Shown: piece by piece, positions 1 to 58,288 of the stretch
Position numbering within the stretch: position 1 is the stretch's first letter
Layout of the letters: each line of letters starts with the position of its first letter
Source: Lachnospiraceae bacterium
Lineage (GTDB): Bacteria; Bacillota; Clostridia; Lachnospirales; Lachnospiraceae
DNA: 64,000 nt
NCBI GenBank assembly: GCA_014804795.1
Contig: JAAUZC010000020.1
Location: 1 to 64,000 of the forward strand
Direction of reading: 5' to 3'
Position numbers and translations under genes: made by a program
The notes under the pieces: model-generated
Databases searched by the model: none
The model's input: the letters and a program-made list of their open reading frames with translations, nothing else
Told to the model about the DNA's origin: nothing

Positions 1-127
1 GCAGTGCCGCTCGATTCCGCTTTGCTTCATCTCGCTCACGGGCTTCGCCCTATCACTTCGCAATCTGACAAAATTGACTGCAAGCAGTCATTTTGCCATC
101 TTACTTCGTGGCACTGCTCATTGCCAA
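1..127 (-). repeat. Copy 1 of a dispersed structured element (probable transcribed leader or ncRNA on the minus strand; may continue past the left edge)
   Basis: Shares 'gggcttcgccctatcact..gcaatctgacaaaattgactgcaagcagtcattttg.catcttact.cgtggcactgctcattgc' with 44917-45043. Preceded on the minus strand by TTGTCA-17-TATAAT. Confidence 0.7.
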
Positions 128-30695: not shown

Positions 30696-30819
30696 ATGAT
30701 TCCTCCTGTTTTAGGTTATATAGTTCTTCTATGATACACGGATTGCTCCGCATTTCATGCTCCCGCAATCCTAAAACATTCGAAATCCGCCCTGATCGGG
30801 CTTCTTTCTCATGTTTTGC

Positions 30820-30882
30820 GGGTCCCAAGGTCAAAAATCCTTTTGCAAGCAAGCTTGCATCGGATTTTAGACCTTTTGACCC
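30820..30882. repeat. Large imperfect palindrome within a probable repetitive extragenic element
   Basis: gggtcccaaggtcaaaaatcc...tgcaagcaagcttgca...ggattttagaccttttgaccc. Confidence 0.65.
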
Positions 30883-31027
30883 TGGTATCATAATACCAGA
30901 TACATCTTACAGTATCCTGACAGAACGGAAAAAATATTATGACAATTTTGTCAGAAAAAAACTGCGGCGCAGGTATGCCTGCCGAGCGCAGTTACACAAA
31001 ATGGACTGAAAATAAGAATTCCAAAAT

Positions 31028-43077: not shown

Positions 43078-44724
43078 TTAATCTTCTGCCTCTTCATTAT
43101 CACTGCCATAAATGGAGAAGGCAATATTTGTTGCATGGTCGGAAACTCTCTCAAGTCCCGATACAATATCCGAAAACAGCATTCCCGCTGCCGGTGTACA
43201 TTCGTTTCTTGTGAGCCTGTCCACATGATGCTGCTGCAGTTCCCTTTCCTTTTCATCTACCGCCGCTTCCAACCTCACAATATCATTCAAATGCTCTAAT
43301 GTACCATTTGCAAACATGTCCACTGAATAGCGGACCACTGTATTGACCATGTCCAACATCTCGCCCAATTCATGCTGCGCATCTTTGCTGATCAAGATAT
43401 TTTCTTCTCTTCTTCTGACAGCGCTGTCCGCAATATTCTCCGCATGATCACCGATTCTCTCTATGTCGTTTACCACATGGAAGAGGCCGCCGATCATCTT
43501 CGCATCCTCTATCGGCAGGGTTGTCTGGTTGATCTTGACAAGATACCCTGTGATCGCATGATTCAGGAAGTTAATGTTTTCTTCCACAGAATAAACTTCC
43601 TGTATATCCTCTTCATCCAACGTGACCAGTGCATTCATTGCTCTGTTTAAGTTCTCGCTGGCAAGAGAAGCCATACGGTCGATTTCCTTTATTACTTCCA
43701 CAACTGCCGTGGCCGGATTCAAGACTACTTTATTGCCGATATATTTAAGCTGGAAGCTGTCTCTGTAACCTACATTCTTGTCGCTGCCCGGTATGAGGAC
43801 ATAAGTCAGCTTCACGATGGCGCCGATAAACGGTGTCAGCACGATCACAAGGAATATCTTGATAAACATGTGCGCGTAAGCCACAATACGTCCCGGGTCA
43901 TTGCCCGCCATGCTCTCAAACATCCAAAGCAGTTTATCCATTGCAAACTGTAAGATTATGTACATGATAACCGTGCCGAAAACATTGAACAGCAGATGTA
44001 TCATAGCTGCCCGCTTTGCGTCTTTCTTACCGGCAAGAGATGCCAGAATGGACGTTGTGCAGGCTCCGATATTACAGCCCAATGTAATATACATACACAT
44101 ATCCAGTCCCATCAGTCCCTGATTTGCCATTAACACCATAATACTGACCGTCACAGAGGAACTCTGAATGATCGCCGTCAATACAAAACCAAGCAGGATG
44201 CCGAGAAGCGGACTTTTCAGCGCCGCAAACATATCCATAATAACCGGAGATTCTTTCAGTCCGGACATAGCTCCCGACATTGTAGCAAGCCCCATAAACA
44301 ATACGCCAAAGCCGACGATCACCTCACCGATCTTTTTCATCGCCTCTTTTTTGCAGAACATCACCATGAGCACACCGAGTAATAAAATAACCGGTGCAAC
44401 TTTCTCCAGTTTAAAAGATACAAGAAGGGCTGTTACTGTTGTTCCGATATTGGATCCAAAGATAACGCCCGCCGCCTGAAACAGAGTCATCAGACCGGCG
44501 TTTACGAAACTGACTACCATAGCGGTACAGGCAGAAGAAGATTGAATCACTGCCGTAAAGATAAATCCTACCAGAATACCGGTAAAACGATTTGTGGTGA
44601 ACATTTCCAGAATTCTTCTGAGTTTTGCACCGGCTACTTTTTCAATGCTGTCACTCATGACACGCATGCCATACAAAAATAGCCCAAGCCCTCCGGCCAT
44701 CGATAATATTATGCCAGCTTCCAT
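43078..44724 (-). CDS. Na/Pi cotransporter family protein with C-terminal PhoU domain
   Basis: Duplicated transport motifs (GFIFTAVIQSSSACTAMVVSFVNAG; GFVLTAIIQSSSVTVSIMVLMA) and PhoU-like helices. Confidence 0.93.
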   Translation of the reverse strand: MEAGIILSMAGGLGLFLYGMRVMSDSIEKVAGAKLRRILEMFTTNRFTGILVGFIFTAVIQSSSACTAMVVSFVNAGLMTLFQAAGVIFGSNIGTTVTALLVSFKLEKVAPVILLLGVLMVMFCKKEAMKKIGEVIVGFGVLFMGLATMSGAMSGLKESPVIMDMFAALKSPLLGILLGFVLTAIIQSSSVTVSIMVLMANQGLMGLDMCMYITLGCNIGACTTSILASLAGKKDAKRAAMIHLLFNVFGTVIMYIILQFAMDKLLWMFESMAGNDPGRIVAYAHMFIKIFLVIVLTPFIGAIVKLTYVLIPGSDKNVGYRDSFQLKYIGNKVVLNPATAVVEVIKEIDRMASLASENLNRAMNALVTLDEEDIQEVYSVEENINFLNHAITGYLVKINQTTLPIEDAKMIGGLFHVVNDIERIGDHAENIADSAVRRREENILISKDAQHELGEMLDMVNTVVRYSVDMFANGTLEHLNDIVRLEAAVDEKERELQQHHVDRLTRNECTPAAGMLFSDIVSGLERVSDHATNIAFSIYGSDNEEAED

Positions 44725-44754
44725 ATTTTCCTCCCCATATCGCACAACATATGC

Positions 44755-45043
44755 CGCAGTGCGCATTCGGTAAATCTTCGATTTCCCTCTTTCGCGGGCT
44801 TCGCCCTATCACTCTCTGATCAGGCCGCTTTACCCCGCAGTGCACGCTCGCAAAACCTCCGGTTTTACTCGCTCGCGGGCTTCGCCCTATCAGACCCTGA
44901 TTCGGCTGCTTTACCCCGCAGTGCACGCTCGCAAAACCTCTGGTTTTACTCGCTCGCGGGCTTCGCCCTATCACTCTGCAATCTGACAAAATTGACTGCA
45001 AGCAGTCATTTTGTCATCTTACTCCGTGGCACTGCTCATTGCA
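44755..45043 (-). repeat. Structured repeat with three tandem 81-bp modules (probable 5' leader RNA of the Na/Pi cotransporter gene)
   Basis: Units 44755-44835, 44836-44916, and 44917 onward. Each has gggcttcgccc and a T-rich/A-rich hairpin. The tail 44981-45043 matches window positions 62-125. Confidence 0.75.
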
Positions 45044-45052
45044 TACGCGTAC

Positions 45053-45081
45053 ATTATAACCTGTTTGTCGACTTCTTTCAA
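45053..45081 (-). promoter_or_regulatory. Sigma-A-type promoter driving the leader/cotransporter
   Basis: Minus strand TTGAAA (45076-45081), 17-bp spacer, TATAAT (45053-45058). Confidence 0.7.
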
Positions 45082-45110: not shown

Positions 45111-46277
45111 TTATCCGGAAGTACGGCTCATCTCCAACAGCTTCTGCCGCATCTCATTCTCAATCTTCCCGAGTTCTTCCTCTGCGCTTCTTCTTCTGGC
45201 GCGGCCTTCCTCCTGTATCTTTATCACCTCGTCCAACGTACTGATAAGTGTCTGGTTCGTCGCCGTCAACGTCTCAATATCCACTATGCCCCGCTCGCTT
45301 TCTCTGGCTGTTTCAATGGTTGCGCTCTTAAGCTTTTCCGCATTTTTCTTAAGCAGCTCGTTGGTCATATCCGTCACTTCCCGCTGTGCCTTTGCCGCTT
45401 CGCCCGCATGCTCCGCTCCGATAGCAATAACCATCTGGCTTTTCCACAGAGGTATCGTATTTACCAGAGTAGACTGTATCTTTTCCGACATAGCCGTATC
45501 GTTTCCCTGAATCAGCCGAATCTGTGGCGCCATCTGCATGGATACTGCCCTCGTCAGTTCCAGATCATAAATCTTCTTTTCAAAGCGCTCGCACATAGCC
45601 GCATAGTCCTTTGCCGCCTGTGTATCCTCCGGCAGCCCGCTTCGCTGTGCTTTTTCAAGTAATTTTGGCAGTTCTTCGGTCTTTGCCTGCCCCAACTTCT
45701 TTTTGCCCGCCAGAATATACATGGAAAGTTCCTTAAAATAATTCAGATTCAGCTCATACATCTTGTCCAACATTGCCACATCTTTCAGAAGTGTCACCTG
45801 ATGATTTTCCAACACTTTGACAATCTTATTGATATTATTTTCCGCCTTATCATATTTCGCTTTCAGACTGTTCAGTTTATTACTGCTTTTTTTAAAGATT
45901 CCGAGAAATCCCCTTTCCTCTTCCTCATCAAAACTCTTAAGTTCCGCCACCACCCCTGTGAGCATCTGGCCGATTTCTCCCATATCTTTGGTGCGCACAT
46001 TATTTAAAGCGTTCTCCGAGAAATCAGCGATCTTTTTCTGGCTGCCCGCTCCATAGCACAATACCATCTGGGTATTGGTAATATCGATCTGCTTTGCGAA
46101 ATCATCTACCATCTTCTGTTCTTTCGCTGTCAGCACCACCTCAGGCTCTTTCTTTGAAACCTCCTCTTCGGACTGTGCCCCGCTCTCCACAGGTGCCGAC
46201 GTCTTTTCCGCAAATATCTCCGGCTCAAAAGTAAGTACAGGGGCCTCCTTCAACATTTCATCCAAATTGTTTGCCAT
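45111..46277 (-). CDS. Toxic anion resistance protein (TelA family)
   Basis: LDKMYELNLNYFKELSMYILAGKKKL, TRAVSMQMAPQIRLIQGNDTAMSEKIQSTLVNTIPLWKSQMVIAIG. Confidence 0.92.
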   Translation of the reverse strand: MANNLDEMLKEAPVLTFEPEIFAEKTSAPVESGAQSEEEVSKKEPEVVLTAKEQKMVDDFAKQIDITNTQMVLCYGAGSQKKIADFSENALNNVRTKDMGEIGQMLTGVVAELKSFDEEEERGFLGIFKKSSNKLNSLKAKYDKAENNINKIVKVLENHQVTLLKDVAMLDKMYELNLNYFKELSMYILAGKKKLGQAKTEELPKLLEKAQRSGLPEDTQAAKDYAAMCERFEKKIYDLELTRAVSMQMAPQIRLIQGNDTAMSEKIQSTLVNTIPLWKSQMVIAIGAEHAGEAAKAQREVTDMTNELLKKNAEKLKSATIETARESERGIVDIETLTATNQTLISTLDEVIKIQEEGRARRRSAEEELGKIENEMRQKLLEMSRTSG

Positions 46278-46330
46278 GATATATCCTCCTAATCCTTATC
46301 ATTACAGGTTTCGATCTGCATCTTCTTTTC

Positions 46331-47698
46331 TCAAGTAAACTCCATCTCCTTCGTAAGCCCTTCTCTTGCCAGCATGCTCTTTAATACCCGTGCATCCGCA
46401 GTCGCATCAAACACAGCATCCTGAAACAGATTATTTAAAAGCTCCGCAAACGCCTGGTTGATAATATCCAGCGTTTTTTCTATCTCCGCCTTTGCCTGCA
46501 AAACCTCTTCCCCCGGCACACTGATCCTGTCAAACTCTTCATATGCCTCCACCAGTTTCAGGGTAGTCGGCAGATAGTAATCCATGGGTTTATGCATCCG
46601 ATGCATCTGCTCAGGATGTTCCCTTACACTGTCAAAAATCTCTTTTAACAGATTTTCCAGTCGGAACAGCTTATCGGAAATCACTTCCCCCTCAATGTTA
46701 TCATTCAGATCTCTCAGTTTGCGGATACACTCCATTCCCTCCGACACCATGGCGTTCAGTTCATTTTCCGGAGAATTTTCCGCTGGTCCGCTGCTTAAGT
46801 CTTGTCCGTCCGGCACATGACCTGTAACGGCCGCCTTTTTCTCCTCTTCTTCTCTGATCCGCCTGTTTTTTTCCGCCTCCAAATACTGCCCGTAAACCAG
46901 ATCATTCAACATGAAGCAGGTTTCCTGCTCGTCCAGATGTCCCTCAGGAAACATCCCTGCCTTCAGCATTTTCCGGATGTCCTTTTTTACATAACCGTCG
47001 CTTTTTCCTGTTGCTTTTGCCAGTTTTTCAATATCACCGTACATTTTCGAGCCACACAGATCTATGTATCTGTCTGCCCGTTTTAACCGCTTCCACTTAC
47101 TGATGCCGGTTCCGATCATCCCCGCAAATCCTGCCATAAGCGCCAGATGAATACCCCAACTCGCCAAAGTGCCCGATACACCGATGAAAGAAAGAAACAT
47201 CCTTCCAATCATGGCTAATCCCATAACGCCGACGCCGATGCCGCCAAATACCTGATACAGAACGCCTGAAACACTTCCCACCTTGTTTTTCCTTACCGCC
47301 GGAACACTCGCGGAACTCTGCCTGCACGTAAACTGCTCCGGCTGCCCGGACTGCTCTCTGTACTTGAACTGCACCTCCCTGAACTGCTCTTTGTACCTGA
47401 ACTGTTCCTTCCTGAAGTGCTCCTGACGTCTGCGCTCTTCCTCGCGTCTGAACTGTTCCTGCCGGTCCCTTCGATTTTCTTCCTGTTTTTTTCTCTCCTC
47501 AGCTTTCTGCTTCCATTTGGAAATATCCTCAGATGAAACAGTGCCTTTCGCAATCTGCTTTCCCACTTCATTCAAAGTATCTGTCACCGTCTGGGCAACA
47601 AGGTTGTTCAGAACTTTAAAATCCCCGCTCTGTAAAGCATCCGCAACCGCGTCCTTTATCCGCTCCCCCATATTATTTTGATTATGATTTCCATTCAT
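46331..47698 (-). CDS. XpaC-like (5-bromo-4-chloroindolyl phosphate hydrolysis) family protein
   Basis: Charged N-terminal repeat region, two TM segments, C-terminal helical region; adjacent to telA as in known xpaC-telA pairs. Confidence 0.75.
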   Translation of the reverse strand: MNGNHNQNNMGERIKDAVADALQSGDFKVLNNLVAQTVTDTLNEVGKQIAKGTVSSEDISKWKQKAEERKKQEENRRDRQEQFRREEERRRQEHFRKEQFRYKEQFREVQFKYREQSGQPEQFTCRQSSASVPAVRKNKVGSVSGVLYQVFGGIGVGVMGLAMIGRMFLSFIGVSGTLASWGIHLALMAGFAGMIGTGISKWKRLKRADRYIDLCGSKMYGDIEKLAKATGKSDGYVKKDIRKMLKAGMFPEGHLDEQETCFMLNDLVYGQYLEAEKNRRIREEEEKKAAVTGHVPDGQDLSSGPAENSPENELNAMVSEGMECIRKLRDLNDNIEGEVISDKLFRLENLLKEIFDSVREHPEQMHRMHKPMDYYLPTTLKLVEAYEEFDRISVPGEEVLQAKAEIEKTLDIINQAFAELLNNLFQDAVFDATADARVLKSMLAREGLTKEMEFT

Positions 47699-58128: not shown

Positions 58129-58250
58129 AAAACAATCTCCTTTGTCCGTATTGTTCTTGACCAGATTATATCATCTAAATACGTCAATGTCATTATAATT
58201 TTCAAGCACCTTGACATATCTGAACTGTTTTAAAATTTCTTCTTGACATA

Positions 58251-58288
58251 TATAGATATCCGATATATTATATAGATATCCGATATAT
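58251..58288 (+). promoter_or_regulatory. Tandem operator-like repeats at the padR promoter
   Basis: tatagatatccgatatat twice (58251-58268, 58271-58288), immediately after TTGACA (58243-58248). Confidence 0.6.

Follow-up and report, generated by a model that had tools for sequence, protein, structure and literature searches.

The 64,000-nt stretch of Lachnospiraceae DNA analysed here (the window) contains, on the minus strand, a gene for a Na/Pi cotransporter with a PhoU domain (43,078–44,724; PF02690, 3e-65; PF01895, 3e-32), and the leader in front of it raises the question of what kind of sequence has come to stand between this gene and its promoter. A preliminary description of the locus offered three readings, namely a regulatory leader, a non-coding RNA, or a mobile palindromic element behind the promoter. 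The promoter itself was found as claimed there, with a TTGAAA -35 box (45,081–45,076), a 17-nt spacer and a TATAAT -10 box (45,058–45,053) ahead of the ATG at 44,724. The -35 box is also part of the element-free promoter present in six relatives, and the -10 box is the insertion point of the element described below, from which its final base or bases may derive. Behind the -10 box lies the element's conserved 5′ block GTACGCGTA (45,044–45,052, minus strand; T-R-T-N-C-R-C-G-N-A by column frequencies in 69 promoter copies), and transcription is predicted from this arrangement to start at about 45,044–45,046 on the minus strand. Two ORFs (388 and 455 aa; 45,111–47,698, minus strand) separate the cotransporter gene from a RibF-like gene in the window, and in at least five relatives (L268–L271, L273) coding sequence for a RibF-like C-terminus lies shortly upstream of the cotransporter promoter. 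Elsewhere in the window, a 20-bp tandem repeat, TATATAGATATCCGATATAT, is present in two perfect copies (58,249–58,288).

Analysis of the leader recovered three 81-nt copies on the minus strand (44,754–44,834, 44,835–44,915 and 44,916–44,996; spacing 81/81; TRF score 323), which stop about 30 nt short of the cotransporter ATG, as well as the initial hairpin TGACAAAATGACTGC..GCAGTCAATTTTGTCA with its CUUG loop. All three modules carry GGGC-GAA-GCCC, and the compensatory change in their A/T stem is present as described (AAAACC/GGTTTT in two modules, AAATC/GATTT in the third). While the three modules thus stand, the first of them is not an independent unit: it forms the 3′ half of a full element copy (44,918–45,043, minus strand), which has the initial hairpin within it and GCAGTGC/GCACTGC as its closing stem. 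This copy scored 145.9 bits with model R1, built from six copies of the host genome, and 130.4 bits with model R2. Fold and covariation divide it, on the minus strand, into an outer stem P1 (GCAGTGC, 45,029–45,035; GCACTGC, 44,918–44,924), a long hypervariable hairpin P2 with a G-CUUG-C cap (44,972–45,028), the mini-hairpin P3, GGGCGAAGCCC (44,958–44,968), and a hairpin P4 with a tandem-GA base, GCGAG..CGAGC (44,927–44,953). The second (44,837–44,917) and the more diverged third module (44,756–44,836) are duplications of the 3′ half, comprising P3, P4 and the outer edge, as established by repeat analysis and model matches. Similar 3′ expansions occur in 3 of 90 copies, the target counted in, and in 11 of 76 copies. 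The leader folded better than all of 100 dinucleotide shuffles (z = -4.9).

Comparison of many copies defined a complete unit of about 127 nt, in which the outer stem encloses the long first hairpin, AUA, GGGCGAAGCCC and the hairpin on GCGAG/CGAGC, and which opens with the 5′ consensus T-R-T-N-C-R-C-G-W-A-R-G-C-A-A-T-G-A. The arms of the first hairpin vary in sequence among copies and nevertheless pair in each, the G-CUUG-C loop usually being kept. The proposal of a conserved, covarying fold is strongly supported: in an alignment of 104 copies under a covariance model, both sides varied in every one of the 42 base pairs, and complementarity held in 93.6% of paired cells as against 32–49% when the partner was slid, although this alignment and a second one from named genomes (mostly Lachnospiraceae assemblies; 91% versus 32–45%) were both model-fitted, which biases the counts towards structure. 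G-U pairs outnumbered A-C cells by 106 to 27, a ratio that a fitted alignment favours to some degree and that suggests that it is the transcribed-sense strand that folds, be it as RNA or, possibly, as single-stranded DNA.

In the host genome, hairpin and module co-occur and are scattered across many contigs, with 22–24 model matches when partial modules are counted and about 20 dispersed copies. Several contigs of this draft genome terminate in a copy, including the present one (1–125, minus strand; complete, 124.8 bits). A covariance-model scan of relatives, as the preliminary description had suggested, gave matches in 26 of 61 near-relative genomes; under strict filters, the order yielded 76 positive genomes out of 295 and the class 26 out of 391. 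One copy (L188) lies in the genome of Lachnospiraceae bacterium A4, a cultured relative. Copies that are 97.6–99.2% identical have unrelated flanks, indicating recent spread, and some sites are common to several species (greA, L105 group), so that copies can also be of long standing, perhaps retained for a function. Rfam scans at gathering and permissive thresholds returned nothing meaningful at the target, and we found no paper on such a repeat in Lachnospiraceae among open-access papers. A phage origin was considered and set aside, as a search of viral contigs with one exact pattern of the element gave zero matches.

Placement of the copies was examined relative to promoters, stop codons and genes. 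A -10-like hexamer stands at a near-fixed distance from 87 of 131 copies, which strongly supports the promoter link proposed for this leader; the distance between the -10 hexamer and GCAATGAGC is exactly 16 nt in 69 copies, the -35 signal peaks at a 17-nt spacer, and 60 of the 87 have an extended TGn. A further 26 of the 131 copies start at the stop codon of the gene ahead of them, 5 follow a T-run and the remaining 13 are unassigned. Genes ending in this way, as read by eye, include tuf (L086, L211) and others whose ends resemble those of atpG, pfkA, etfB and gltB. In other families of the class, most related copies stand behind terminator-like T-runs, and some carry longer inverted ends. Group IIC introns insert behind terminators; identity with such an intron was considered, and no intron domain was recognised in the element. 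With genes called by a simple longest-ORF rule, the downstream gene was co-oriented with the element in 111 cases and opposed in 16 (co-oriented in 60 of 72 and 51 of 55 in two sets). These genes encode diverse products, among them the cotransporter, an amidohydrolase, a response regulator, CorC, a SpoU methylase, RtcB and an alpha-amylase, and the association with a single pathway that would be expected of a riboswitch was not found. A second tandem repeat family, TGACATGGTATAATATCGNCAGATATTATACCAGCGCCGAGCGAAGCGAGTGTGCAT.., palindromic and with a -10-like core, often adjoins the element; it occurs in L004 (G000:C51, 120–340) and also upstream of L138.

The history of the locus became apparent from relatives at which the element is missing. 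In six same-genus species, the cotransporter orthologues (88–90% identical) retain TTGTTGAAAGATGTCG..GTTATAATG, followed by an unrelated leader without the element, indicating that the promoter predates the insertion. Similar element-free promoters are found at the orthologues of L050, L053, L058, L063, L065, L079, L109 and L112. The cleanest empty site is that of L065, where relatives read TTATACTGATTCCGTAGACTT and the host genome reads TTATAATATACGCGAC-element-GGCTGACTTCGCAGACTTG; by this comparison the junction falls within the -10 hexamer, which the element restores. The empty sites away from the target put insertions at the -10 hexamer or within it. A target-site duplication, as expected of a MITE with terminal inverted repeats, was not seen at L065 and none was clear overall, with one possible ATGGTATAMT repeat around the element at L053. 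The ancestral leader is missing over about 100 nt at the target, so that a clean insertion does not account for the locus and a later loss or an unclean event is needed.

These comparisons bear directly on the possibility that the leader is a cis-regulatory RNA, that is, a riboswitch or protein-binding leader controlling the downstream gene, here a phosphate transporter. A conserved fold right after a promoter and upstream of a gene is what such a reading predicts, and at greA the element copy is kept in four species, while in G001, G005 and G008 the GTGCGCGAAGGC block alone remains, perhaps as a remnant of the element. Yet six relatives manage the same promoter without the element, its downstream genes share no function, and many copies follow stop codons or T-runs, all of which makes this reading very improbable. 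Among the three original readings, a mobile palindromic element behind the promoter fits best, because the same promoter is element-free in the six species and copies stand before unrelated genes; a regulatory leader specific to the cotransporter found no support.

The element resembles a known RNA family in both architecture and behaviour. Clostridiales-1 (Rfam RF01699; Weinberg 2010, PMC2864571) was listed in 2010 without a function, and in open-access papers its literature consists of the 2010 table and passing mentions only. RF01699 has 11 matches in the host genome, one of them in the window (30,732–30,890, minus strand; 134.8 bits). This copy lies directly behind GGTATTA and is followed, about 40 nt on, by AGGAGG and the ATG (30,695) of a gene, the same placement as that of the target element. 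Both families have a closing outer stem, a long variable GCUUGC hairpin and further hairpins (two in the element) with tandem-GA motifs; both are dispersed in the same genomes and follow -10 boxes, T-runs and stop codons, and the first T of Clostridiales-1 often supplies the base by which TATAA or TATTA becomes a -10 box. Their conserved sequences differ, however, and the larger third hairpin of Clostridiales-1 (AUGAGcA..CGAAU, GGAUUGCGGGAG) is not found in the element, which has GGGCGAAGCCC and GCGAG..CGAGC instead. The RF01699 and element models cross-match chiefly through the long hairpin. Since the target gave no RF01699 match even at E ≤ 10 (gathering cutoff 48 bits), and the sibling copy L061 passed the cutoff (50.8 bits) mainly on the long hairpin, we regard the two as sister kinds and leave the target outside RF01699; the element appears to be an undescribed sister of Clostridiales-1. 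A further relative with TTCAGCC-type ends and a weak RF01699 score (L435, L436, L440, L457) suggests a third subfamily, and L435, L436 and L457 seem to stand after stop codons, in the case of L435 after a PNPase-like end. One promoter, that of the L106 orthologue, has TATACT and an ordinary leader in four species; at the same point G003 has the element and G000 has Clostridiales-1, followed by an apparent relic of the element's last hairpin. At this promoter, G006 (L380) has a third, different sequence after TATAAT, which may be another insertion.

Rfam types Clostridiales-1 as an RNA gene, and the element could by analogy be a family of stand-alone, trans-acting non-coding RNA genes with their own promoter. 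Its own -10, a fixed predicted start, a strong RNA fold and many copies would suit such genes, but the promoter is that of the downstream gene and is older than the insertion, no terminator was seen by eye between element and cotransporter gene in the target leader, and 26 of 131 copies are preceded by a stop codon and not by a -10 box. We therefore consider stand-alone RNA genes distinctly unlikely.

Among known dispersed repeats, pneumococcal BOX elements (Croucher 2011, PMC3049150) are similar in being small, dispersed, modular and RNA-structured, in multiplying internal units and in showing no functional theme downstream, and their mobiliser is likewise not certain. BOX is over-represented between convergent genes (PMC3049150), whereas the element lies in sense to the downstream gene (111:16), is registered to the -10 box and does not show this enrichment. 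REP/RAYT systems (PMC3733652, PMC8266576) also involve short, dispersed palindromic repeats that are thought to be mobilised in trans. Unlike REPs, which measure 20–40 bp (PMC3733652), the element is a promoter-registered, multi-hairpin unit of about 127 nt, occurs in genomes without a Y1 match and lacks, in its 5′ consensus, the GTAG or CGTC tag beside a 20–40 bp palindrome.

A related reading takes the element for a REP-like DNA palindrome, mobilised in single-stranded form by an IS200/IS605-type (Y1) transposase, with an incidental RNA fold; it overlaps with the mobile-element reading, of which it would be one possible way of moving. The element is rich in hairpins, has a short AT-rich target (TATAA, TAA or T-run) in which it takes a fixed orientation, leaves no clear target duplication, and shares the host genome with Y1 transposase genes. 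On the other hand, no Y1 match (PF01797, E ≤ 1e-5) was found in the carriers G001, G005, G021 and G176, although G021 alone has 13 copies, the orientation follows transcription (111:16), and the G-U excess suits RNA at least as well, which leaves this reading rather unlikely. As a general mobiliser, Y1/RAYT was set aside, being patchy and not tracking the element, and no mobilising enzyme was identified.

We conclude, with a probability of roughly 70%, that the leader represents one copy of a non-autonomous mobile element that is small, occurs in Clostridia and would be transcribed as a structured 5′ leader, a conclusion drawn from its observed covariation, dispersal, empty sites, fixed -10 register and orientation bias; the cotransporter is incidental to the finding. 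Bringing no -35 box, the element would insert into a promoter already in place, at the -10 box and in sense orientation, and transcription would then start at the element's own 5′ end, giving the downstream mRNA a structured 5′ leader; position and orientation make its expression as RNA likely. Other copies, directly behind a stop codon or terminator T-run, would form a structured 3′ tail. At the target, the element would have landed behind the cotransporter promoter in the host lineage, the old leader would have been lost and the 3′ half duplicated twice. Mobilisation is probably by an enzyme supplied in trans, and the effect on the mRNA would be mild, with stability or insulation likelier than ligand sensing. 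The route may have been transposition of single-stranded DNA, insertion mediated by RNA, or random insertion followed by selection for tolerated sites. The register to promoters is unusually precise, and the predicted RNA 5′ end coincides with the end of the element. In the boldest reading, which we consider unlikely, a new class of mobile elements would be at work, within which Clostridiales-1 and the element family form two branches; its members would recognise open promoters, or other AT-rich DNA that is transcribed and locally melted, and would integrate at the -10 box in the sense direction, possibly via their own RNA.

The finding is of more interest than a single regulatory leader. In Lachnospiraceae and other gut Clostridia, the element seems to be a common repeat that carries no label and rewrites the 5′ ends of mRNAs, with a fold that annotators would otherwise read as a riboswitch or regulatory leader, and its behaviour as a dispersed insertion offers an explanation for Clostridiales-1.
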